Part shown: piece after piece, positions 9,636-62,183 of the stretch
How the letters are laid out: every line of letters starts with the position of its first letter
Numbering within the stretch: the first letter of the stretch is position 1
NCBI GenBank assembly: GCA_026004195.1
Contig: BPIQ01000001.1
Coordinates: forward strand, 841,871-905,870
Reading direction: 5' to 3'
Source: Candidatus Binatia bacterium
GTDB taxonomy: Bacteria; Desulfobacterota; Binatia; HRBIN30; BPIQ01
Length of the DNA stretch: 64,000 bases
Translations under genes and position numbers: made by a program
Notes under the pieces: generated by a model
What the model was told of the DNA's origin: nothing
The model's input: the letters and a program-made list of their open reading frames with translations, nothing else
Database searches by the model: none

Positions 9636-10702
9636 ACCTCGATGCACTCCGGCGAGGGGAACTCCTGGCCGAGTTCGACGACGGTCATGAGCTTCCGGAG
9701 AAATTCTTCCACGCGAGGCGAGAAAGGCGCGCACGGGTCGTCGGGGTCGCGCCGGGAATTGGGTCGCTCGGGCCGCTCCACGTACTCGCCCCGGCCTTCG
9801 TCGAAACCCAACGTGTAGCCGAGCGGCTGGCTGTCGCCCCCGTACCCGAGGAGCTTCCAACCGACGCCGTTCGCGTTCCCGCCGTATTCCGGCGCCGAAA
9901 ACATCCCCTCGAGGACGTGGCCCGTGAGCAGAGGCACGAACCCCGAGAGCCCGGGAGCCGCGAGAACCTCGTCCTGTTCGTCGGGCGCGAGTTCGACGAA
10001 CGATCGCCCGAACCGCGCGAGGCTTTCGGCCTCGATGGCAGCCACCCCTTCCCGGTAGCGCCGCCGGAGCGCGACGGGAACCCCACCCGGCACGCCGCCT
10101 TTCGCGTCCGCGAGCGGGTTTCCCTGGATTTCCGGAACGGCCTCGGTGCCGAAGAGCCTCGCACGCCAGGCGAGCTTCTGCACGCGACTCAGCGGTGCCC
10201 AGCGCAAGAACGCGTTTTCCGGGAATCGATCGGACGGGGCCAGTCTTTCCGCGTCGGGAAAAGGGTTGCGGTCACTGAAGGGCCCACCCGCGAAAATCGG
10301 CCGAGCCGAAAAGTGGGAAAAGACGCGAAGCTCGAGATCCCCGGATTCCACGAGGCCGTTTCCGTCCACGTCGGTCCCGGGGCACGAGGGCTCCGTCGCA
10401 CCGAGAAAACGGAGGACGGCGACGAAATCCGACGCTCCCCGACGCCCGTCACAGTCGGCATCCCCTTCCGGCCAGAAGCTCAGAAGTCCCTGGATGTAGT
10501 CGACGGCACGAGCCTCCCTGGCCCCGGGAAGCGAGTCGCTGGGTACGATTCGGGAGGCCGCAGCCTCGAGGACGGCACGCTCGGTACCGGAGAGGAAGCC
10601 ACGGGAGGACGAAGACGAGCTCGCGTGCCCTCGCAGAGGGGTGGCTGTCGCACCCAGGAGCGCGAAGAGCTTGAGAACTTGCCTTCGCGTGAGCTCGGGC
10701 AC
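9632..10702 (-). CDS. gluconate 2-dehydrogenase subunit 3-like Tat protein with dockerin-like insert
   Basis: A 356-aa partner of the GMC flavoprotein. The N-terminus TRRQVLKLFALLGATA is a Tat-type signal with twin Arg. Residues 38-75 and about 150-250 match the subunit-3 family, which chaperones or exports the flavoprotein. Between them residues 79-125 form two EF-hand-like loops, GDADCDGRRGASDF and GTDVDGNGLVESGDLE, the pattern of dockerin type I calcium repeats. Such an insert is unusual in this family. The C-terminus is aromatic and charged and ends in ECIEV. The upstream SDR gene lies 21 bases before the stop-side boundary on the other side of the start, so this ATG may begin its own transcript or follow that gene. 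Confidence 0.7.
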   Translation of the reverse strand: MPELTRRQVLKLFALLGATATPLRGHASSSSSSRGFLSGTERAVLEAAASRIVPSDSLPGAREARAVDYIQGLLSFWPEGDADCDGRRGASDFVAVLRFLGATEPSCPGTDVDGNGLVESGDLELRVFSHFSARPIFAGGPFSDRNPFPDAERLAPSDRFPENAFLRWAPLSRVQKLAWRARLFGTEAVPEIQGNPLADAKGGVPGGVPVALRRRYREGVAAIEAESLARFGRSFVELAPDEQDEVLAAPGLSGFVPLLTGHVLEGMFSAPEYGGNANGVGWKLLGYGGDSQPLGYTLGFDEGRGEYVERPERPNSRRDPDDPCAPFSPRVEEFLRKLMTVVELGQEFPSPECIEV

Positions 10703-10723
10703 CGGCCCCCCGTCGGCGTTCTC

Positions 10724-11608
10724 TCAGCTCGGCCGGCGTGTCTGGGGAATCCCGATCGGCTGCAGGTGCTCCCCGAACACGGCGTCGAAGTTTTCCGCGA
10801 TCTCGGAGGCCGAGAGTCCGCCCGGCTTGTACATCATCGCGATCGGCCGCGGGAGCTGGAAAAGCGTGAAGCCGTAGCCACGCCGGCCGAACACTTGCCC
10901 GTTCACGTGCGCCGCCTTCTCCGAGGCCAGATAAGCCACGAGAGGGCCGTTGAGCTCGGGGTTCATTTCCGGAGGCGGTTCTTTCCCCTCGAGACCGGGG
11001 ATCGTCCCGGTCATTCTCGTCATCCCGGCGGGGGCCATCGCGTTCACGGTGATGCCGTACTTCGCGAGTTCGATCGCCCAGACCAGCGTGAGCCCCATGA
11101 TCCCCGCTTTGGCCGCCCCGTAGTTGCTCTGTCCGAAGTTTCCGCGGAGTCCGGCGCTCGAGGTAATGTTGATGATCCGCCCGTAGCCTTGCTCCCTCAT
11201 GATCGGTATGGCGTGCCGCCCGCAGTTGAACGTTCCCTTCAGGTGCACCGCGATCACCGCGTCGAATTCCTCCTCCGTCATCTTGGCGATGGTCCGGTCG
11301 CGGACGATGCCGGCGTTGTTCACGAGAATGTCGAGCCTTCCGAACGCGTCGATCGCCGTCCGTACGATCGAGGCCGCGGCCTGGAAATCGGCCACGCTGT
11401 CGTAGTTCGGAACGGCCTGGCCGCCGAGAGCCTCGATTTCCTTGACGACCTGCGCCGCCGGATCTTTCGCCGTCCCGCGTCCGTCCACCTCGCAGCCTAC
11501 GTCGTTCACCACGACCTTCGCCCCTTCGCGAGCCAGCGCCAGAGCGATGCCGCGTCCGATCCCCCGACCCGCACCGGTTACGATGGCGACTTTTCCGTCG
11601 AGCAGCAT
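10724..11608 (-). CDS. SDR-family 3-hydroxyacyl-CoA dehydrogenase-like (MFE-2 type)
   Basis: A 294-aa classical SDR with TGAGRGIG near residue 10, 'NDVGCEVDGRG' after beta-2, NNAG, and the Ser/Tyr/Lys set (ITSSAG, SNYGAAKAG). The 'NDVG...DG.G......A..VV.EI' block is characteristic of the dehydrogenase domain of peroxisomal multifunctional enzyme type 2, which oxidises 3-hydroxyacyl-CoA. The C-terminal 60 residues form the longer lid seen in that group. The ATG at 11608 has a strong GGAGGA 8 bases upstream. The gene is divergent from an acyl-CoA dehydrogenase across a 123-bp region with a clear palindrome, consistent with shared control of a beta-oxidation-like route. Confidence 0.8.
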   Translation of the reverse strand: MLLDGKVAIVTGAGRGIGRGIALALAREGAKVVVNDVGCEVDGRGTAKDPAAQVVKEIEALGGQAVPNYDSVADFQAAASIVRTAIDAFGRLDILVNNAGIVRDRTIAKMTEEEFDAVIAVHLKGTFNCGRHAIPIMREQGYGRIINITSSAGLRGNFGQSNYGAAKAGIMGLTLVWAIELAKYGITVNAMAPAGMTRMTGTIPGLEGKEPPPEMNPELNGPLVAYLASEKAAHVNGQVFGRRGYGFTLFQLPRPIAMMYKPGGLSASEIAENFDAVFGEHLQPIGIPQTRRPS

Positions 11609-23536: not shown

Positions 23537-24739
23537 TCAAACGACGCCTTCTTCTTCCAGCGCACGGAGCTCCTCCTCGCCGAGGCCGAGGAGACCGCCG
23601 TACACCTCTCGGTTGTGCTCGCCGAGCTTGGGCGCCCCGCGCCGAATCCGCCCCGGTGTGGCCGAAAAGCGGGGGTAGACCCCCTGCATTTTGACGGGCC
23701 CGATCGTCGGGTCCTCCACTTCCACGATGTCCTCGCGCGCCGCGTAGTGGGGGTCGGCGAAGATCTCGTCGATCGTGAGGGCACGGCCCACGGGAACCCG
23801 AGCCGGAATCAGCAAAGCTTCGATTTCCTCGGCGGTGTGGCGCGCCACCCAGTCGGCCACGATCCGGTTGATCTCGTCGGCGTGCTGCACCCGCGCGGCC
23901 AGCGTGGAGAAGCGAGGGTCTTCGAGGAGGTCTTCCCGGCCCATGGCGCGAGCGAGCCGTGGGAAAAGCCCGTCTCCCGCCGCCACGATGAAAATCCACT
24001 TCCCGTCCTTCGTCCGCCAGTTGTCGAGCGGTGCCGAGTTCGCGAGACGGTTGCCCTCGCGCTGCCGTACGATTCCCAGCCGGTCGTAGGCAGCGACGGT
24101 GTGCTCGAGAATCCGAAAGACGGACTCGTAGAGCGCCAGGTCGACCCACTGGCCGCCGCCCTGACGCACGTCTCGGTGGTAGAGCGCGATCATGATGGCG
24201 AGCGCGTTGAAGATTCCGGTGAGATAGTCGGAGAGAATGATGCCGGGCCGCACGGGTGGCCTGTCCGGATAGCCGGTGATCGCAAGAAGCCCTCCGAATC
24301 CGATCCCGTTGCGGTCGAGACCCGGCCGGTCCCGATAGGGCCCGGTCTGTCCGTAGACACTCGCGCGGGTGAGAACGATGTCGGGCTTGAGCTTCCGGAG
24401 TTCGTCGTAGCCGAGGCCCCACTCCTCGAGCGTACCCGGCTGGAAATTCTCGACGATCACGTCCGCGAGCGGCACGAGCCGCCGAAAAAGCTCCCGCCCC
24501 TTCGGTTTTCGGAGGTCGAGCGTGATCGACTTCTTGTTCCGCCCTTCGACGGCCCAGAATAGAGAATACCCGTCGACGAAGGGGCCGATGGTCCGCAGGA
24601 AGTCGCCCTTTCCGGGAAGCTCGATCTTGATGACCTCGGCTCCGAAGTCGGCGAGCAGCGTGGCTGCGAACGGGGCTGCTACGCGCGTACCCAGGTCGAG
24701 AACCCGGATGCCTTCGAGGGGAAGAGGACTTTCCGCCAT
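23537..24739 (-). CDS. CaiB/BaiF family CoA-transferase
   Basis: A 400-aa family III CoA-transferase. Diagnostic features are the opening [21 protein letters not shown], '[17 protein letters not shown]', '[14 protein letters not shown]', and the catalytic Asp in [13 protein letters not shown] at about residue 147. It moves CoA between acyl-CoA and free acid with no ATP use. The ATG at 24739 ([10 protein letters not shown]) is the conserved start. The reading frame stays open upstream into the frameshifted repeat-protein gene, but this is not a fusion (see that entry). The substrate is unknown. No dehydrogenase gene is adjacent. Confidence 0.85.
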
Positions 24740-24819
24740 GCTCGAGAGACTACCCAGGAAGACTCGCCCGGACAACGGAGGACGGGCGAAGCCGCCCCGA
24801 CGCGAGCCCGAGCCAGCGG

Positions 24820-27529
24820 CTAACGAGCCCCTTCTTCTCCCTCGCGCTTCCGCAGAGCCACCAAGGCCACCAGCGAAAGAACACATACCGCCAGGGCACC
24901 GAACGGCAAGGACCACAGAGGCGCGAGCCGGCGTTCCCCGACCACGACGGAATTCTCGCTCGTGTCGTTCCCCGGAACGGGGTCTTCCGGCGCTTCCACA
25001 CGGGCCGTGTTCGCCAGGAGCCCTCGGGCTGCCGGCCCCGGGACGACCGTAAGGCGCAGCGGCCGGCAGGGACTCCCCGGGAGGGAGACTCGCCCCGCAT
25101 TCACAGCGGATCGTTCCACCCGAGGCGAGCACGCACGACCAACCGTCCCCCGTCGCCGAGACGAACGCGAGACCGGCCGGGAGAACGTCTTCGACGACGA
25201 TCGGAGGAGACGCGGATGCCGTCCCCACGTTGGAAACGCGCAGGACGAAAAAGCTTTCCTCGCCTACGAGAAAGCTCCCCTCGTGGACCTTCTCGAGACT
25301 CAGGTCCGGGAACGCGCCCGAGTACCCGAAGTTCGCGTATTCCACCAGCGCTCCGGGCTCGACGGCGACGTCGTACCAGAGCGGTGTCGTCGGGGACATC
25401 CCCGAGGGTACCCCGGACTCCACGGAAATGCGGTAGAGGCCCGGAACCAGCCCGGAAAAGGCGTACTCGCCGTTCTCGTCGGTCGTCGTGGAGGAAAACC
25501 CGTCGTCGGCGGAGCCCAGGATCCCGTCGGGCCCCGCGAACCCGAGACCGAGCACGACTCCGGCAATACCGCTCTCGCCCTCGTCGGGAACACCGTCGCC
25601 GTCGAGATCGAACCAGACGATGTGCCCGATCGTCGCAAGATCACCGGGCGGAACCGTGCTCGTCGCGGTCGGCGAGGGAGTGTGACTGGGAGTCGCCGTC
25701 GGAGTCGAGCTAGGAGTAGCCGTCGGGGTGTGCGTCGGAGTGGAGGTCGGTGTCGCCGTGGCGGTCTTCGTCGGAGTGTGGCTCGGCGTCCTCGTCGGGG
25801 TGTGCGTCGGCGTCGACGTGGCCGTATGGCTCGGCGTGCGAGTCGGCGTGTCCGTCGGCGTGGCCGTCGGTGTGTGACTGGGTGTGGCGGTCACCGTGTG
25901 CGTGGCCGTCGGCGTCTCGGTCGGCGTCCGAGTCGGCGTCGAGGTCGGTGTCCGGCTCGGTGTCCGAGTCGGCGTCTCGGTCGGTGTGGCCACCAAGGAA
26001 AGAAGGCATTCGACGGATTCGTAGTCCGCGCCGGCCGTGAGCACGATCGCCGAGGCCGTGTCCGCCGCCCCCGTCGTTTTGTCGATGGGGAAAAACCGGT
26101 ACGGCGAAGACCCCGTGGTGCCCCAGAGCTGCCCGTCCGGGTCGGAGGTCAATCCTTCCACGTCGGAGACACCGAGGGGCCCCACGTCCGTCACGGCGCC
26201 GGTTGCTTTGTCGACCTTCACGAGCCTGTCGCCACTACCGCCGTTGTTGGCGATCGCGTACATCTGGCCGTCGAGATCGACGGCGATGTCGTCGATGTCC
26301 CCGAGGCCGACGACCGCCGTGGACCCGATCACCACGTAATCGTCCCCGCCGAAGGCCCCGTCCACGTGTGCGCCGGTCGCAGGGTCGATTTGGAGAAGAA
26401 CGTCGTCGGCCGAACCGCGCCGGTGTGACCCGTAGAGAACACCCGTCGTGGGATCGAAGCTCAGACCGTCGACGTCGCTGAACGCGAGGTTTCCCACCGA
26501 GCCGCTCCCGGTACCGAACGGGCTCGATGTCGCGGTGAAAGCACCGGTCTTTACGTCGATGACGCCGAGCTGGCTCGCGTTGGCGCCGTAAAGTACTCCG
26601 GTGGAGAGTCGGTAGGCGATCGCCTCGACGGCGTCGGTCCCGAGCCCCGGACCGATTGGAATGTCGGTCGAGCTGGCCGTCTTGTCCAGGTGCGCGAGGA
26701 GATCGTTCCCCCCTGCCCCACCTCCGGAGTCCGCCACGAGAAAGCAGCGACGGGAAGCGTCCATAGCCTCCCGGTACGTGGCGAGGGCCGCAGCCCACTT
26801 GCGCGAGGTGCCGAGCGTGCCGGGCGCCTCGTAGTTTCCCGTGACGGTCACCACACGCCACTCGGGGTTCACGGTGATGTTGCTCGTAGCGCTTCCCCCC
26901 GTCGTGCCCCCGCGAGAGAGGGCGGTGTAACCCGCGCCGGGAGTAAAGCTCTCGGTCGGGGGGCCCTCGACGCCTATGACACCGAACAGGAGCTCTACGG
27001 GGTGCCTCGTCGGGGACGTCGAGCCCGAGGAAGCGACGGTCCCGCTACCCTTGCCCGTACGGGTCCGATCGAGCGCTCCGATGGGGTCGAGGCCCACGAA
27101 AACGGCCGCCGCAAGCGCCCTGGCCGTGACGCTCGGGTGACTCACCGTAATGGAATCCCCGGGCGAGAGAGGTGAGGTCCCATGAGCTACCAGGATGACC
27201 GTCCGCACGTCGCCGTTGTTGATCACATCGGCGTCCGCCGTGTAGACGTTCCCGGCCGAGTCGGTGGCGGCGACACCACTGCCCACCGTGCCCGCGTCGT
27301 CCATGGCAAAAGCCAGAAGGATACTGCGACCCGCGGGCACCGCGTTCGGGACTACGAGAGAAATCGACGTGCCGGGTGTCTTGCTCGCGACGCTGCCGAG
27401 GTCCTGCTCGAGAGCGATCTGCGCCCGAGCCAGGACCGGCAGGAAAACAAGCAACAGAACCCCGGGAGGGCAAAAGAGCCTTCGCAGCGCGTTGCCTACC
27501 CGGCCACCCACAACCACACCGACCACCAC
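24820..27529 (-). pseudogene. frameshifted secreted repeat/adhesin-like protein (SdrD_B and DUF11-like)
   Basis: If one base is removed, this reads as a secreted protein of about 900 aa. Domains in order are: a signal peptide ending near ARAQ, an N-terminal region of 'aaT.Da.gN.Y' type (residues 35-230), a propeller-like region with [16 protein letters not shown]-type blades, a Thr/Pro-rich repeat, an SdrD_B-like calcium/beta domain ([20 protein letters not shown]), a DUF11-like domain ([11 protein letters not shown]...), and a C-terminal hydrophobic segment with a basic tail. The frame breaks at the C4 run 25075-25078: one fewer base joins 'GASLPPG' to '[13 protein letters not shown]' and ends correctly at 24820. 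Unrepaired, the frame runs on into the CoA-transferase gene. Start codons are GTG only, and 27529 is the outermost. A consensus error is as likely as true loss. Confidence 0.65.
25655..25995 (-). repeat. Thr-Pro repeat tract
   Basis: A degenerate 6-12 bp repeat (for example cgtcggcgtg on the plus strand) encodes about 110 residues of T-P-(T/S)-x units such as [11 protein letters not shown]. It forms an extended linker between the propeller-like region and the SdrD_B-like domain. It is not a CRISPR array, because unit lengths vary and the frame stays open. Confidence 0.8.
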
Positions 27530-31572: not shown

Positions 31573-32769
31573 CTAGCCGGCCTCCCCCCTCGGAAGCCCG
31601 AGGACCCTCCGCGCCAGGATGTTCCGCTGGATCTCGGAAGTTCCGGCGAAAATCGTTCCGGCGCGGTAGTAGAGGTAGGAACGAGCCCACCGGCCACGTG
31701 CCACCGCGCGCGGGTCTTTCTGCCAGAGGGGTGCGTAGGTGTGCAGCATTTCCATGGCCGTGTCGTGGAGCCGCTGGCTCATCTCGCTCCAGAAGAGCTT
31801 CACCATCGAGCTTTCGGGCCCGGGCTCGCCGTGCCGCTGGAGGTGCGTGAGCGTCCTCCAGTTCTGGAGTTTCACGAGCTCCACCTCGATCCACGCCTGG
31901 GCCAGCTTCTGCCGCAGCACCGGGTCGTCCTTGGCGAGTTTCCCGTCGCGCTTCCACTTGCCCGCGAGCTCGACCAGCTCCTGCAGGAGAATCCGGTGGA
32001 TCACCATCTGCCGGGGCGAAGTCCCCCGCTCGTGCGCGAGCGTCGTCTGGGCGATCTGCCAGCCGCGGTTGAGCTCGCCGACGAGGTTTTTCCTGGGGAT
32101 CCGGACGTTGTCGAGAAACACCTCGTTGAACTCCTCGCTCCCCGTCATCTGGCGGAGAGGGCGCACGGAAATCCCCGAACTCTGCATGTCGACGATGAAA
32201 AAGCTGATTCCCCTGGTCTTCGGCGCTGCCGGGTCGGTCCGCGCGAGCAGGATTCCCCACCGCGCGAACTGGGCGTAGCTCGTCCAGGTTTTCTGCCCGT
32301 TCACGACGAACCAGTCCCCTTCCTCCACCGCCCGGCAACGCAGGCTCGCGAGGTCCGAACCCGCGTTCGGTTCGGAGAAAAGCTGGCACCAGATCTCGTC
32401 GGCGGAGAGGATGCGGGGAAGGTGTCGTTTCTGCTCCTCGGTACCGTGGGCGATCAGCGTGGGGCCGACGAGGTTGACGCCGATCCGACCGATGAGCTCG
32501 GGCGCCTTGGCGCGTGCCATCTCTTCCTGCAGGATGAAGTTCTCCACGACGCTCGCGCCACGCCCGCCGTACTCCCTGGGCCAGTGGACGCCGACCCACC
32601 CTCCGGCATGGAGCTTTTTCTGCCAGTCGACGAGAAACCGAACTTCTTCCTCGAGGGTTTCCGGCTCGGGGAAAGCTTCCGTGCCCCAGCCGGGAGGCAG
32701 GTTGCGCTCGAGCCAGCCGCGGACCTCCGCGCGGAACGCTTCCTCGGAGGGACGAAACGAAAGGTCCAC
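31573..32769 (-). CDS. acyl-CoA dehydrogenase
   Basis: A 398-aa acyl-CoA dehydrogenase with 'WCQLFSEPNAGSDLASLRCRA' and a C-terminal 'GTSEIQRNILARRVLGLPRG'. The MCAD-type Glu position is Ala (TIFAGT). The Glu of LAHERG is the likely base. Closest in the window is the dehydrogenase at 16667 (same PGWGTEAFPEPET opening). It follows a second dehydrogenase gene by 4 bases, and the two may form a mixed oligomer, as in alpha2beta2 steroid-type dehydrogenases. It is the last gene of the PrpD/CoA-transferase operon. Confidence 0.85.
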   Translation of the reverse strand: MDLSFRPSEEAFRAEVRGWLERNLPPGWGTEAFPEPETLEEEVRFLVDWQKKLHAGGWVGVHWPREYGGRGASVVENFILQEEMARAKAPELIGRIGVNLVGPTLIAHGTEEQKRHLPRILSADEIWCQLFSEPNAGSDLASLRCRAVEEGDWFVVNGQKTWTSYAQFARWGILLARTDPAAPKTRGISFFIVDMQSSGISVRPLRQMTGSEEFNEVFLDNVRIPRKNLVGELNRGWQIAQTTLAHERGTSPRQMVIHRILLQELVELAGKWKRDGKLAKDDPVLRQKLAQAWIEVELVKLQNWRTLTHLQRHGEPGPESSMVKLFWSEMSQRLHDTAMEMLHTYAPLWQKDPRAVARGRWARSYLYYRAGTIFAGTSEIQRNILARRVLGLPRGEAG

Positions 32770-32773
32770 GGGA

Positions 32774-33940
32774 TCAGCTCCTCGGCAGCCCGAGAATCCT
32801 CCGGGCGATGATGTTCCGCTGGATTTCCGAGGTTCCGCCGGCGATGCTCGCGCTCCTCGACCAGAGAAACCCGTGGACCCAGCGCCCCTGGGATTCGGCG
32901 CGGGGATCCCCGTGGACCAGGTTGCCCCGCGGCCCGAGGACCTCCAGGGCCGTCTCGAAAAGCCTCTGGCTCAAATCCGCCCAGAAGAGCTTGACCACGG
33001 AGCTCTCGGGGCCCGGCATCTCGCCGCGGGAGAGTTTCGTCATCGTCCTGCAGTTGTGCAGCCTCATGATCTCGACCTCGATGAAGCTCGTCGCGAGTTT
33101 CTGCCGCAGAACGGGGTCTTTCGACCGTCCGGTGGAGCGGAGGAGGTCCCGGAGCTCGTCCACGGCGATGCGGTGCAGGACCTGTTCCTTGAAAGGGAAC
33201 GCCGTGCCGCGCTCGTGGGCCAGCGTGGTCTGGGCGATTTCCCATCCCCGATTCTCCTCGCCGACGAGGTTCTCCCGCGGCACGAAAACGTTCTCGAAAA
33301 AGGTTTCGCTGAACTCGGCGCTACCCGTGATCTGCCGAAGAGGTCGAATTTCGACGCCCGGAGCCTTCATGTCCACGATGAGGTAGCTGAGACCCTCGTG
33401 CTTCGGGGCGTCCGGGTCCGTCCGTGCCAGCAGGATCCCCCAGCGGGCGAACTGGGCGTAACTGGTCCACACTTTCTGCCCGTTCACCCGGTATCCGTCC
33501 CCCACGCGCTCGGCGCGCGTGCGGAGCGACGCCAGGTCCGATCCGGCATTCGGTTCCGAAAAAAGCTGGCACCACACCTCTTCGCAGCTCAGGATCTTCG
33601 AGAGATAGCGCCTTTTCTGCTCTTCGGTTCCGTGGGCGATGAGCGTGGGCCCCACCAGGTTGATCCCGACGCGGTTCATCACCTGCGGCGCGCGCGCCCG
33701 CGCCATCTCTTCCTGGAAGATCGCCTGTTCGGTCAGCGAAGCTCCCCGGCCACCGTACTCCACGGGCCAGTGGACGGCGACCCAGCCTGCCTCGTGGAGC
33801 TTGCGCTGCCAGGCGGTGAGAAACTCCGCTTCCGCCTCGAGGCTCGGGAAGACGCGCGGGCCGCGGGGAACGTTCCGCTCGAGCCAGGACCTGAGTTCCC
33901 GGCGAAAGGCCTCTTCTCTCTCCGTGTATCCGAAATCCAT
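32774..33940 (-). CDS. acyl-CoA dehydrogenase
   Basis: A 388-aa acyl-CoA dehydrogenase with 'WCQLFSEPNAGSDLASLRTRA' and 'GTSEIQRNIIARRILGLPRS'. The MCAD-type Glu is replaced by Gly (SIAGGT). LAHERG supplies the alternative Glu. It differs from its neighbour in residues 240-290, which line the substrate pocket, so the pair is not a simple duplication. It lies 30 bases after the CoA-transferase gene and 4 bases before the next dehydrogenase gene. The order suggests that it acts on the CoA ester made by the transferase. Confidence 0.85.
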   Translation of the reverse strand: MDFGYTEREEAFRRELRSWLERNVPRGPRVFPSLEAEAEFLTAWQRKLHEAGWVAVHWPVEYGGRGASLTEQAIFQEEMARARAPQVMNRVGINLVGPTLIAHGTEEQKRRYLSKILSCEEVWCQLFSEPNAGSDLASLRTRAERVGDGYRVNGQKVWTSYAQFARWGILLARTDPDAPKHEGLSYLIVDMKAPGVEIRPLRQITGSAEFSETFFENVFVPRENLVGEENRGWEIAQTTLAHERGTAFPFKEQVLHRIAVDELRDLLRSTGRSKDPVLRQKLATSFIEVEIMRLHNCRTMTKLSRGEMPGPESSVVKLFWADLSQRLFETALEVLGPRGNLVHGDPRAESQGRWVHGFLWSRSASIAGGTSEIQRNIIARRILGLPRS

Positions 33941-33970
33941 GGGGACGAACGAGCCTCCGCCTGCCGAGCT

Positions 33971-35161
33971 TCAGATGGCGCCTTTTCGGCCGAGTTCGTC
34001 GATCTCGCTCGGGCCGAGTCCGAGGAGAGAACGAAGGACCTCCGCCGTGTGCGCGCCGAGGGACGGTGCGGCCTCGTAGCGGGGGGCGGTACCCGCGACC
34101 CGGATGGGACAACCGACGGCGCGGAACGTGCCGAAGCGGGGGTGGGGGTATTCGACGATCATGCCGCTCGACCGCACGGCTTCGCTCGCGAGCGCCTCTT
34201 CGACCGAGAGCACGGGTGCGCAGGGCACCCGACCACCGAGAATCCGGAGCCACTCGGCCGTCGTCCTGCTCCTGGTCTTCTCCTTGAGAATGGGCAAGAG
34301 CTCCTCGCGGTGGGCGAGCCGGTCCGCGAACGTCCGGAAACGCGCGTCCTCGAGCAGGAAATCCAGTTCCAGCAGCCTCGCGAACCGCTCCCAGAATTTC
34401 TCCTTCATGCACATGACGACGATCCATCCATCGCGAGTCGGAAAATTCTGCGACGGGACGAGGCTCGGGTGGGCGGAGTCCGGTAGCCTTCTCGGCCGGT
34501 AGTCCGTGTTGAGGACCCAGGCTGCCAGGTAGTTGAGCATCGAGACGGCCGTGTCGAGGAGACTCACGTCGACGTCGCATCCGAGCCCCGTTTGCCGGGC
34601 CCGGTGGAGCCCCACGAGCAGCCCGAGCGCCGACGCGAGCCCGGCCGAGAAGTCGACGACCGAAACCCCGCACTTGGCCGGTGGCCCGTCGGGCTCCCCC
34701 GTGAGACTCATGAAGCCGGCCATGGCCTGCACGAGGTAGTCGTAGCCCGGGTGGGAGCGCAGGGGCCCGGTGGTACCGAAGCCCGAAAGCGTGCAGCAAA
34801 CGATCCGGGGGTTGTACGGCCGGAGGGCTTCGTACCGGAGACCGAGCTTTTCGGGCAGATCTCCGCGGGTGTTCGCGTAGACCGCGTCGGAAACCGCCAC
34901 GAGCCGATGGAACAGGTCGCGTCCCTCGGGAACTCGCAGGTTCAGCGTGAGGCTCTTGGCGTTGCGGTTGAGAGCCTGGAAGTAGGGACCGTCCCCGTCC
35001 GCTGCCTCCGGAGGGACGTTTCGCGCTTCGTCTCCCCCTACCGCAGGATCCTCGATCTTGACGACCTCGGCACCGAGATCGCCGAGGAGCGTCATCGCGT
35101 AGGGACCCGCTCCGAGCTGCGTGAAGGCCAGGATCCGCAGTCCTTCAAGAGGCCGTTCCAT
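33971..35161 (-). CDS. CaiB/BaiF family CoA-transferase
   Basis: A 396-aa family III CoA-transferase: LRILAFTQLGAGPYAMTLLG, 'GAEVVKIEDPAVGGDEAR', 'NRNAKSLTLNLRVPEG' and the catalytic Asp in SHPGYDYLVQAMAGF (about residue 140). Its start overlaps the MmgE/PrpD gene by 17 bases, and two acyl-CoA dehydrogenase genes follow. It would convert the acid substrate of the operon to a CoA thioester using a donor such as succinyl-CoA. Succinate formed that way could feed the sdh operon, but this is inference. Confidence 0.85.
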   Translation of the reverse strand: MERPLEGLRILAFTQLGAGPYAMTLLGDLGAEVVKIEDPAVGGDEARNVPPEAADGDGPYFQALNRNAKSLTLNLRVPEGRDLFHRLVAVSDAVYANTRGDLPEKLGLRYEALRPYNPRIVCCTLSGFGTTGPLRSHPGYDYLVQAMAGFMSLTGEPDGPPAKCGVSVVDFSAGLASALGLLVGLHRARQTGLGCDVDVSLLDTAVSMLNYLAAWVLNTDYRPRRLPDSAHPSLVPSQNFPTRDGWIVVMCMKEKFWERFARLLELDFLLEDARFRTFADRLAHREELLPILKEKTRSRTTAEWLRILGGRVPCAPVLSVEEALASEAVRSSGMIVEYPHPRFGTFRAVGCPIRVAGTAPRYEAAPSLGAHTAEVLRSLLGLGPSEIDELGRKGAI

Positions 35162-36569
35162 CTTTTTGCGACAAAAGAGCGAGCTCGCCCGCTCGAGGCA
35201 AGGTGTCGAGCTCCGCGATCGCGCGGGCCAGCTTCTCCGAGGCTGCCGGCGGCAGGGTCCGGCCGGCGTTGCGGAAAAACTTTTCCTCGACCTCGCGAGC
35301 CGACAGAGGGCGTTCGGGGCTCCCGCGATTCGTCGCTTCCTCGGCTTCGAGGATGCGACCGTCCGCGAGCTCCACGCGGATTCGACCCCCGAAGCGGCGC
35401 GGGAATCCCATGTCCCCGGCAGGCCGGTAGGCCACGCGAGAGGCGACCTCGAGGACGGAGCGTTCGCGGATGGCTTCTTCGCGGAAATCGTCGAGATCCA
35501 CGTGGCCCCGAACGAGCATGCAGGCGAGGGTGTACGGAAGGCTGAACTTCGCGTCGTAAGGCGTCCGCGGCTTTTTCTTGCCCGGTTCGGGCTCGCAGAT
35601 CACCGGGATTTCGCGTTCGGGTACGGAACACTCCACGCGAACGATTCGCCCGGCATGGAAGCCCTCGGCGCGCCGAAGCCCGAGGGCCGCGTCGAGAAAA
35701 GCGTGGAGATAGTGGCAGCAGGGGTAGGGCTTGAGGGCCGTTTCCAGAACGTGCCACCGCTCCCCGAGGCCCTCGACGAGCCGCTCGGCCCGGTACGCCT
35801 CCCCGCCCAGATAGGCCCGGTAAAAACCGAAGCGTCCCTCGAAAACCTCGCGCGGGCCCGAAAACCCGGAGCCGGCGAGCCGGACGGCTACGAGGCCCGA
35901 GTGCGCCGCCCAACCGCCGTGCAGCCGTTTCACGTCGCTCCCGTCGCTCAGAAACTCGAGCAACCCTCCGGCCTGACTCCCGGCGAGCCCGAGCGCCGCC
36001 GCGAGCTTTTCCGCCGAAAGTCCGTGGAGAAGGCCGCCGGCCACGACGGCACCGAAGACGTTGCAGATCCCCGTGGGATGAAAGCCCCGATCGTGGAAAG
36101 CTCCCGGCGCGACGAGCGCCACCCGAATCGCCGTTTCCATGCCGAGCGCGAGCGCCCGTACGAAGGCCCGTCCGTCCGCCCCGGTTTCTTCCGCGGACGC
36201 CAACGCGGCGGGGAGTACGCCGGAGCTCACGTGGAGGACGGCTTCCTGGTGCGTGTCGTCGAAATCGAGCCCGTGGACGAGCGTTCCGTTCACGAGTGCG
36301 GCCCACGCGGCAGGAAGCCGGACGCCGGAACCGATCACGCCACAAGACCCCCCGGTACCGAGCTCCCGCACCGAGCGCAGCAGGGACCGCCCGAAGGGTT
36401 CGCCCGCCGACGCGAGCGCTACGCCGAAGCTGTCGAGGACGTGCGCCCGCACCTTCGCGCGCACCTCTTCCGGAATGCCTTCCCAGCCGGTGGAGACGGC
36501 GAACCCGGCCAGTTCCTCCGCGTACGTGCGGGTCCGCGCGCCCGGCGCCTTGGAAGACTCGCTTGACAC
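35145..36569 (-). CDS. MmgE/PrpD family protein
   Basis: A 474-aa protein of the MmgE/PrpD superfamily, which covers 2-methylcitrate dehydratase, cis-aconitate decarboxylase and related lyases. Typical segments are 'AHVLDSFGVALASAG' near the N-terminus, 'NGTLVHGLDFDDTH' with the catalytic His/Asp region, GFHPTGICNVFGAVVAGGLLHG and 'QAGGLLEFLSDGSDVKRLHGG', and 'YPCCHYLHAFLDAAL' in the C-terminal lid. The GTG at 36569 begins MSSESSKAPGART; a frame to 36608 lacks a better start. It is first in an operon with CoA-transferase and two acyl-CoA dehydrogenases and diverges from a PqqC-like gene. Without methylcitrate synthase nearby, propionate metabolism is not supported, so the substrate is open. 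Confidence 0.8.
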   Translation of the reverse strand: MSSESSKAPGARTRTYAEELAGFAVSTGWEGIPEEVRAKVRAHVLDSFGVALASAGEPFGRSLLRSVRELGTGGSCGVIGSGVRLPAAWAALVNGTLVHGLDFDDTHQEAVLHVSSGVLPAALASAEETGADGRAFVRALALGMETAIRVALVAPGAFHDRGFHPTGICNVFGAVVAGGLLHGLSAEKLAAALGLAGSQAGGLLEFLSDGSDVKRLHGGWAAHSGLVAVRLAGSGFSGPREVFEGRFGFYRAYLGGEAYRAERLVEGLGERWHVLETALKPYPCCHYLHAFLDAALGLRRAEGFHAGRIVRVECSVPEREIPVICEPEPGKKKPRTPYDAKFSLPYTLACMLVRGHVDLDDFREEAIRERSVLEVASRVAYRPAGDMGFPRRFGGRIRVELADGRILEAEEATNRGSPERPLSAREVEEKFFRNAGRTLPPAASEKLARAIAELDTLPRAGELALLSQKDGTAS

Positions 36570-36646
36570 GACAGGCCTACTATGCGAGCAAATCCGCGAT
36601 CCGGTCAATCGATCGCACGAAAGACGCCCCCAGGGGAGGTACGACC

Positions 36647-37414
36647 GTGAGCGAAGCGCGACGCGAGTTTCGGAACGTGGTGCGCAGCACCGAGGTCGAG
36701 CCGCCGATGCCCGTCGACGAGTATCTCGCCGAGCTCGACCGTTTCATCGAGGAGCACAATCCCTACCGGATCAACAAGGTCATCGCTGCCATCGGCAACG
36801 GCACGGCTCCCATCGAAGTGGTGCGCCGCTACGCGAAGGAACTCTACTACCTCGGTCTCTGGATGACGCCGGAGTTCGCGCTGCTCGTCGCCAACGCTCC
36901 CGACGCCGACTCGCTCACCATGGAACACTCGGAGCACTACTTCCACTGGTGCCAGAACTTCGCGGACGAGACCGGATACCTGCGGGACCCGAACCACGTG
37001 CAGATGAAGGTGGAGATGTGCCGGCAGCTCGGCATCGACGACGAAGAGCTCCGGTCCTACGTGCCGATGCCGGAAACGATCGGCTCCGTCTACACCCTTC
37101 TCTACTATTGCCGCCGGTCCTACGAAGAAGCGCTCGCCGCTTTCGGCTACGCGCGCGAGCGGGTGGCCGGGCTCAGCGGTTACGCGGAAACGGTCTACAA
37201 CGGGCTCGCCAAGCACTACGGCATCCGGGCGAAGAACATGGAAGTCCACGCCTACGCCGAGGCGCAGCACGGCGACAAAGCCCTCGAACTCATGCGGAAA
37301 ACCGTGCTCACCGCCGACATCCAGCGGCGGTGTCGCCGGGCCGTCCAGCACACGATCCTGACGAACGAATGGCGGGCCCGGGCCATGAACCGCTGGCTCG
37401 AAGGCGGCGCGTAG
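36647..37414 (+). CDS. PqqC/TenA-like iron- or cofactor-less oxygenase (HDO-like fold)
   Basis: A 255-aa helical protein of the haem-oxygenase-like superfamily, most like PqqC/TenA/CADD proteins. Recognisable parts are DEYLAELDRFIEEHNPYRIN at the N-terminus, the 'RYAKELYYLGLWM' helix, the His/Glu-rich MEHSEHYFHWCQNF, and 'HAYAEAQHGDKALEL', whose His-x3-Glu-x2-His matches the third metal-binding helix with Glu where Asp is usual. Members include PQQ synthase, thiaminase and diiron oxidases that act on fatty or amino acids. The GTG at 36647 has a strong GGGGAGG upstream. The divergent operon encodes PrpD, CoA-transferase and acyl-CoA dehydrogenases, so an oxidase for the same substrate is plausible. 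No pqq genes are nearby. Confidence 0.75.
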   Translation: MSEARREFRNVVRSTEVEPPMPVDEYLAELDRFIEEHNPYRINKVIAAIGNGTAPIEVVRRYAKELYYLGLWMTPEFALLVANAPDADSLTMEHSEHYFHWCQNFADETGYLRDPNHVQMKVEMCRQLGIDDEELRSYVPMPETIGSVYTLLYYCRRSYEEALAAFGYARERVAGLSGYAETVYNGLAKHYGIRAKNMEVHAYAEAQHGDKALELMRKTVLTADIQRRCRRAVQHTILTNEWRARAMNRWLEGGA

Positions 37415-61292: not shown

Positions 61293-62183
61293 TCACCTCC
61301 CGGACTCGTCCTTTCCGCTTTGCGGCTCCGAACCCGCGCCCGGCGTGGGACGGTCCTTTTCCTTCAACGTCGGGACGGTTCGGGAAGTTTCGGTTTCCGC
61401 CGCGATTCGTGGCGTGTCCGCGAAGATGCGCAGGTAGCGGACTTCGCCCGGAAAAGCGTTGAGATCCGCACGAATCACGCCCTCGGTGAGTGTCGCGGAA
61501 ACCACCTGTCCGTCTCCCCGGTACACGCCCGCATGGTAGGGGACGCCCTTCCGAAGGTAAAGCACCAGGTCCCCCACCGCGGGAACGGCCACGGCGAAAA
61601 ACTCGCCGGCCCCGAGAAGTTCCCGCGTGGGACGGTAGGGGACATCCCAGCCCGCGCCGCGCAGAAGCTGCCAGAGAAGCTTGGAATTGGAAAGGTAGGC
61701 GTCCGCCTCCGGGCTCAGGGAGGAGGCCAGTTCGGCACGGTCGACGACGTGATCGAACAGGTGAGGAGGATGCGGAGGACCGACGATCCGCCATTCTCCT
61801 TCGAGCCGCAGGAGCCTGAGCTCGAGGGTTTCTTCTTCCGCTTTTTCCACGACGCCTCGCCCCCCGACCCGGGCCAGGACCGAATAACGCACGGGAACGG
61901 TCGCCTCTGCGTCCGTGGAGCGTGCCGGTTGCACCTCGTAACCGCTCACCACGACGATCTCGTCCCACGCCGGCTCGACCTCCCAGCCGACGTACGGCGC
62001 GAGCTTTCTCCAACCCGACGGCGCGAGCCTCGCCCCGAAGCCGTCCTGCTCGCAAAAATCCGCGGCCACTCGCTCCGGAAAACGTGACTCGGCGACACCG
62101 GCCACGCTGCCGAAGACCAGCGCGAGTGCGCAGAAAAGCAGCGCCCTTTCCGCTCGGTACGAGGGCACCCTTTTTCTTGCCAT
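61293..62183 (-). CDS. secreted NlpC/P60-like protein with Ser at the catalytic Cys position
   Basis: A 296-aa exported protein (signal peptide ending near GVAES). Residues 75-145 form an NTF2-like domain. Residues 160-230 align with the NlpC/P60 core: 'NSKLLWQLLRGAGWDVP' fits the 'DCSGLV..v....G..LP' helix and 'VGDLVLYLRKGVPYHAGVYRGDG' fits the strand with the catalytic His (His217). The catalytic Cys position is Ser167. Either the enzyme is inactive, or it is a serine variant, or I have misassigned the family. It opens the envelope operon. ATG at 62183. Confidence 0.55.
   Translation of the reverse strand: MARKRVPSYRAERALLFCALALVFGSVAGVAESRFPERVAADFCEQDGFGARLAPSGWRKLAPYVGWEVEPAWDEIVVVSGYEVQPARSTDAEATVPVRYSVLARVGGRGVVEKAEEETLELRLLRLEGEWRIVGPPHPPHLFDHVVDRAELASSLSPEADAYLSNSKLLWQLLRGAGWDVPYRPTRELLGAGEFFAVAVPAVGDLVLYLRKGVPYHAGVYRGDGQVVSATLTEGVIRADLNAFPGEVRYLRIFADTPRIAAETETSRTVPTLKEKDRPTPGAGSEPQSGKDESGR

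Follow-up and report, generated by a model that had tools for sequence, protein, structure and literature searches.

A PrpD/CoA-transferase/acyl-CoA dehydrogenase operon facing a heme-oxygenase-like diiron oxidase in a Binatia genome: a possible variant dicarboxylic-acid module

What does a compact operon made of an MmgE/PrpD-family gene, a family-III CoA-transferase gene and two acyl-CoA dehydrogenase genes do, and does the oxidase gene that faces it on the other strand belong to the same pathway? These questions are raised by a locus of Candidatus Binatia bacterium. The window, that is, the whole stretch of 64,000 nucleotides that was analysed (G000:C1:841871-905870), comes from a genome (G000) of 3.63 Mb in 6 contigs. 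A preliminary description made from the sequence had proposed an operon for CoA-dependent catabolism opposite an oxidase of O2 type, and this general picture is upheld here. We consider the operon to be a variant of a described kind, and its link with the oxidase to be the part worth experiment. The features are as follows.

35145..36569 (ORF up to 36608), minus strand: MmgE/PrpD-family protein (PrpD), with Pfam MmgE_PrpD_N/C and the published active-site residues
33971..35161, minus strand: family-III (CaiB/BaiF) CoA-transferase, with Pfam CoA_transf_3 (393 bits) and a conserved Asp column
32774..33940, minus strand: acyl-CoA dehydrogenase B by Pfam, PimC-like subfamily by NCBIfam
31573..32769, minus strand: acyl-CoA dehydrogenase A by Pfam, PimC-like subfamily by NCBIfam, 62% identical to B
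36647..37414, plus strand: heme-oxygenase-like diiron oxidase (HDO; PF14518/TENA), by Pfam, six ligands and fold
36570..36646, no strand: divergent intergenic stretch of 77 bp, with a Shine-Dalgarno-like AGGGGAGG before the GTG start of the HDO gene

The five genes are real and lie where they had been placed, and all five proteins score above the Pfam cut-off, each dehydrogenase with three acyl-CoA dehydrogenase domains. The likely PrpD start is the GTG at 36569 (ORF 35145-36608, minus strand). The PrpD and CoA-transferase genes overlap by 17 bp, and gaps of 30 bp and 4 bp separate the CoA-transferase gene from dehydrogenase B and dehydrogenase B from dehydrogenase A. The four minus-strand genes are a tight operon; from the PrpD start to the HDO gene at 36647, on the opposite strand, there are 77 bp, the distance first reported. 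The results computed here are the set of genes, the arrangement of the operon, the intact state of the active-site residues, the fold of the HDO and the conservation of its facing.

From these we infer a substrate class, an order of steps and an HDO reaction, and we hold the chances of the resulting proposal to be even: a variant module of dicarboxylic-acid catabolism, in which a substituted succinate-like acid is isomerised, activated with CoA and desaturated, and which is fed by the HDO. PrpD would isomerise or rearrange a free 1,4-dicarboxylic acid of the substituted succinate type into a form fit for the CoA-transferase, which would put CoA on the acid, the donor probably being succinyl-CoA. 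The PimC-like dehydrogenases would then desaturate the CoA ester or esters, with a separate enzyme for each CoA regio-isomer, each stereo-isomer or each round. The HDO, with O2 and a diiron centre, would act on the free acid or on a precursor of it, by hydroxylation or cleavage, and in relatives the short-chain dehydrogenase/reductase (SDR) encoded directly behind the HDO may oxidise the resulting alcohol. In favour are the packing of the operon, the PrpD residues and the 1,4-dicarboxylate backbone of characterised MmgE/PrpD substrates, the relatives of the CoA-transferase, the match of the dehydrogenases to a dicarboxylyl-CoA dehydrogenase (PimC), the recurrence of CoA-transferase with dehydrogenase, the facing of the HDO, and the SDR and dehydrogenase genes near HDO relatives.

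The facing was followed through 148 genomes of the same class. When these were searched for the HDO (E <= 1e-60), 18/148 genomes carried it, and close orthologs with at least 68% identity were observed in nine genomes (G000 itself, G001, G034, G054, G027, G104, G047, G021 and G041). These nine form one clade (support 100/99; the overlong row OUT_G000c was left out of the tree), and every one of them faces the first gene of the operon, which is the CoA-transferase gene in seven, PrpD in G000 and a PrpD remnant in G001. The facing CoA-transferase gene of G104 is truncated by the contig end, the HDO/CoA-transferase gap of G041 is about 930 bp, and the PrpD of G001 is decayed and lies in two frames (L066:11270-11667). 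Other window neighbours (LLM, DUF1302, LolA, EEP and PHP) had no match in 6/7 CoA-transferase-facing loci, that of G104 not having been searched. Because these five neighbours were not found in the six loci, the overall gene order is eroded while the HDO/operon pair is kept. The preliminary description had named an oxidase gene not conserved next to the operon as the result that would count against it, and the neighbourhood comparison that it suggested finds the oxidase there in 9/9 closest orthologs.

By eye, two boxes are common to the f11-family loci (L067-L072) shortly before the HDO start, with TTGAC about 18 bases ahead of TACATT/TAGAA. In the window a TTGACA lies at 36563-36568, likewise seen by eye, without a good partner box.

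The facing protein had been called a PqqC-like oxidase, a name that holds at the level of the fold and fails at the level of the family. Its Pfam matches are Haem_oxygenas_2 (PF14518) and TENA_THI-4, and its sole NCBIfam match is the CADD subfamily (44.2 bits against a cut-off of 200). The metal-ligand set (E108, H117, E171, H201, E205 and H208) is invariant in 13/13 aligned rows, one of them 31% identical, and in 35/35 rows of a wider alignment selected from a 40-locus genome scan (L142, with a stop in range, and L106, L111, L114, L118, L131 and L143 were omitted). When the predicted model (pLDDT 86.6) was compared using Foldseek, CADD was nearest, followed by PqqC, UndA and BesC, all with probability 1.00. 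CADD, a self-sacrificing p-aminobenzoate synthase, is the best fold match (TM 0.70-0.83) and has the 3H/3C ligands in common with the window HDO. However, identity is about 20%, the sacrificial Lys152 of CADD aligns with Val183 (the alignment did not reach Tyr27), and the window HDO adjoins a CoA-catabolic operon. Membership in CADD was rejected on the score and the Lys152 position. PqqC has the fold in common but the window protein keeps the HDO metal-ligand set, and a PqqC function was rejected as no PqqC model is among the NCBIfam matches. As the ligands are invariant, the model is nearest to CADD and the Lys152 position is Val183, the window oxidase is, judged by sequence and model, an HDO with a predicted diiron centre and not PqqC.

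Known HDO relatives often bind their substrate at the iron, and the superfamily is presented as serving natural-product biosynthesis, in the sections used here of a 2026 review (PMC13108848). Our literature searches, judged from titles and abstract openings, gave no paper that links catabolism by acyl-CoA dehydrogenase or CoA-transferase to an HDO. We suggest tentatively, and with some doubt, that this HDO may be a dedicated catabolic oxygenase, which would use O2 to prepare a dicarboxylic or cyclic acid for the CoA-transferase/dehydrogenase route, either hydroxylating it or breaking one of its C-C bonds, together with the SDR in relatives.

An SDR gene lies directly behind the HDO gene on the same strand in 7/7 CoA-transferase-facing loci (L067-L072 and L161), and in a sister HDO clade a different SDR, divergent to the HDO, is found in 6/6 loci (L073-L077 and L161). 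Each of the two HDO clades goes with an SDR subfamily of its own, the two subfamilies being about 37% alike. Up to 3 kb from the HDO, acyl-CoA dehydrogenase genes have a density of 0.156/kb, versus 0.038/kb beyond, and 17/31 loci have one in that range. These 31 loci are those of the 40-locus scan without the f11 loci L104-L106 and without L127, L129, L130, L137, L139 and L141; nearly all are titled actinobacterial, mostly Acidimicrobiia, and L120 is titled Acidobacteriota. The annotated actinobacterial neighbourhoods include dehydrogenases, a thiolase, a ChsH2 OB-fold protein, an AMP-binding (acyl-CoA) synthetase and a P450, and their HDOs are about 50% identical to the window HDO. This neighbourhood is an association, not proof of a common pathway. 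Two loci titled Bifidobacterium breve (L113 and L114) share their HDO neighbourhood with Actinobacteria bacterium IMCC26207 (L118), and their titles are apparently wrong.

For both dehydrogenases the best NCBIfam model was TIGR03204 PimC (306 and 294 bits; equivalog cut-off 623.85), the PimD model giving 35 and 32 bits only. PimC, the large subunit of pimeloyl-CoA dehydrogenase, is their best named family; however, the window scores are half the equivalog cut-off and the operon has no PimD-type partner. A PimC/PimD-type large/small pair was rejected, both dehydrogenases being PimC-like. Both have a Glu in the HERG motif, which in the alignment of B falls on a Glu of 1egc; where a Glu usually precedes GTS, 1egc has Gly and the window dehydrogenases have Gly or Ala. 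We take 1egc to be the MCAD T255E/E376G mutant, and the base would then be placed as in isovaleryl-CoA dehydrogenase. Two active enzymes are possible, as homomers or as a mixed A/B tetramer. The closest solved structures are 4x28, which we take to be ChsE4-ChsE5, and Tcur3483. As for the reason for two dehydrogenases, our guess is one per CoA regio-isomer or stereo-isomer, because naphthalene breakdown, in the portion of PMC11659651 consulted, has two dehydrogenases and an intramolecular CoA-transferase, although that transferase belongs to family I.

These two solved structures, the actinobacterial HDO neighbourhoods, a P450 with an aldehyde dehydrogenase in the G021 cluster and the naphthalene route, in spite of its family I transferase, fit a different explanation, namely that a cyclic acid, or one derived from a steroid or terpenoid, is broken down by a route of beta-oxidation type. 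The dehydrogenases in tandem would act like ChsE4-ChsE5, the CoA-transferase would shift CoA from one acid to another or from one carboxyl to the other within a single acid, and the HDO would be a ring-functionalising oxygenase. We consider this combination unlikely. Both dehydrogenases are of one type and 62% alike, unlike a large/small pair, the actinobacterial HDOs share only about half of their residues with the window HDO, and PrpD is not known to have a place in a steroid route.

For the module proposed here, a precedent for PrpD is found in the methylsuccinate/itaconate cluster. According to the part of PMC12290011 drawn on here, an MmgE/PrpD protein is the (S)-(R)-methylsuccinate isomerase, which works with an itaconate CoA-transferase and a methylsuccinyl-C4-CoA dehydrogenase beside a hydratase and a lyase. 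The cluster genes, from Cupriavidus/Pseudomonas, are ich, mcd, MmgE/PrpD, ict and ccl, with the Mcd-type methylsuccinyl-C4-CoA dehydrogenase adjoining the isomerase. The same part gives a common 1,4-dicarboxylate backbone for all characterised MmgE/PrpD substrates and, in P. aeruginosa numbering, the active site His88, Glu91, His102, His152, Lys202 and Lys266. The earlier statement that no known pathway has this set of genes must be narrowed: PrpD, family-III CoA-transferase and dehydrogenase are the core of this cluster (PMC12290011), and it is the tandem dehydrogenases and the HDO that stay unexplained.

The window PrpD matches its two Pfam domains with 226 and 119 bits (cut-off 32.1 each), and when the active-site residues were matched by spacing they were His, Asp (at Glu91), His, His, Lys and Lys. 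An identical local pattern is found in the PrpD of Azospirillum, which is the nearest plasmid relative (47%) and lies inside a cluster of lyase, MaoC, PrpD, dehydrogenase and CoA-transferase. The nearest plasmid CoA-transferases are those of Amycolatopsis (55%; context MaoC, CoA-transferase and lyase), Azospirillum (50%) and Rhodococcus (49%; context of the full five-gene set). Among PDB relatives of the CoA-transferase, succinate-hydroxymethylglutarate CoA-transferase comes first. The active-site Asp column of the family-III CoA-transferase, presumably the catalytic Asp, is conserved in 9/9 aligned rows. From its domains and active-site residues, PrpD is predicted to be an isomerase/hydro-lyase acting on a 1,4-dicarboxylate. 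Two narrower assignments were rejected: 2-methylcitrate dehydratase (NF042438) for PrpD, with 54.7 bits against an equivalog cut-off of 950, and the succinate-glutarate and mesaconate CoA-transferase equivalogs, all far below cut-off.

PrpD genes elsewhere were also observed. The E. coli plasmid record NZ_CP069439.1 has at 9663-10962 an MmgE/PrpD gene in two pieces, 41% identical to the window PrpD, and no five-gene cluster was found at the Cupriavidus and Azotobacter PrpD loci (L165 and L166).

Could the operon then be a reduced methylsuccinate/itaconate cluster, with PrpD as the (S)-(R)-methylsuccinate isomerase, the CoA-transferase of itaconate/methylsuccinate type, one dehydrogenase as the methylsuccinyl-C4-CoA dehydrogenase and the remaining steps elsewhere? 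Taken jointly, these assignments are improbable in our view. In their favour are the occurrence of three identical families in one operon, the PrpD and CoA-transferase identities to the Azospirillum five-gene cluster, the identical PrpD active-site pattern, and the f9 genomes, where the CoA-transferase gene is grouped with dehydrogenase B and a mesaconyl-CoA-hydratase-like gene. On the other hand, the window has tandem dehydrogenases of another subfamily plus the facing HDO. The cluster dehydrogenases of Azospirillum, Pseudosulfitobacter and Rhodococcus share 54-69% identity with one another, but the window dehydrogenases reach only 26-29% when compared with them. The hydratase (ich) and lyase (ccl) genes are not adjacent; the lyase had no match in the operon, nor in its own genome at E <= 1e-25, and the MaoC homologs of the genome lie away from the operon. 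The window PrpD also falls outside the Azospirillum/Pseudosulfitobacter/Caballeronia/Cupriavidus clade (100/100) in a tree that has no assayed isomerase, with cluster rows placed by synteny and Cupriavidus by sequence alone (the overlong rows G000_C2par, Rho (Rhodococcus), G018 and Azb were left out). Plain membership in the methylsuccinate cluster was thus rejected because of the dehydrogenase subfamily, the unmatched lyase and the position of MaoC. By sequence comparison the window operon is like the methylsuccinate module in its first steps, and membership fails on the tested features.

The operon itself varies across the class. When CoA-transferase orthologs were counted at E <= 1e-115, they were found in 28/148 genomes, one copy each; seven of the 28 have an HDO beside the operon and one has it elsewhere. 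The order CoA-transferase, dehydrogenase B, dehydrogenase A is present in G005, G002 and G007, and CoA-transferase with a dehydrogenase of A type in G001, G006, G003 and G010; in f9 genomes the CoA-transferase gene is accompanied by dehydrogenase B and by a PF04199 cyclase and/or a mesaconyl-CoA-hydratase-like gene. PrpD stands immediately before the CoA-transferase gene in G000, G007, G009, G011, G039 and G115. As the presence of PrpD and HDO varies between genomes, CoA-transferase and dehydrogenase make up the core, with PrpD and HDO as optional additions. Just upstream of PrpD, several relatives have a gene for a protein of about 290 aa (c6; e.g. L091:8512-9390), for which no Pfam match was found; a homolog (43%) lies away from the operon at 61416-62057 (minus strand) of the window.

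Several of these observations weigh against the dicarboxylic-acid module with an HDO feeding it. In the remaining 20/28 genomes with the CoA-transferase no HDO of this clade is present, and the f11 genomes have HDO and CoA-transferase with no adjoining PrpD. G007 has a complete PrpD-CoA-transferase-dehydrogenase operon with its HDO genes far away, which is evidence against an obligate link between HDO and operon, and in G001 the CoA-transferase gene is on a different contig from the HDO. The window HDO has no SDR neighbour, the SDRs about 36% identical lying about 25 kb or more from it within the window. No hydratase, thiolase or lyase is found inside the operon, and the route is incomplete as drawn. 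Finally, the substrate is a guess at a class because no enzyme has a characterised close relative.

That the HDO is an independent gene for cofactor synthesis or stress, merely sharing a divergent promoter region with the operon, would agree with its opposite strand, with the 20/28 genomes and with G007, but has little probability, as the facing is kept in all nine closest orthologs, in six of whose loci the other tested window neighbours were not found, and the SDR neighbours and the local excess of dehydrogenase genes speak for a function in metabolism.

Should the HDO be part of the pathway, HDO chemistry would extend to carbon catabolism in uncultured bacteria, and the conserved HDO-SDR/CoA-transferase pairing would be a handle of about five proteins for finding the substrate. 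If it is a catabolic oxygenase, a catabolic HDO branch would be common to this class and Acidimicrobiia. If it is not in the pathway, the PrpD/CoA-transferase pair of the methylsuccinate cluster would still be re-used with a different dehydrogenase pair.

Elsewhere in the window, a long ORF at 23537-27529 (minus strand) has TPT-rich repeats in its first half and a CoA-transferase-like end; it is probably two genes read as one.

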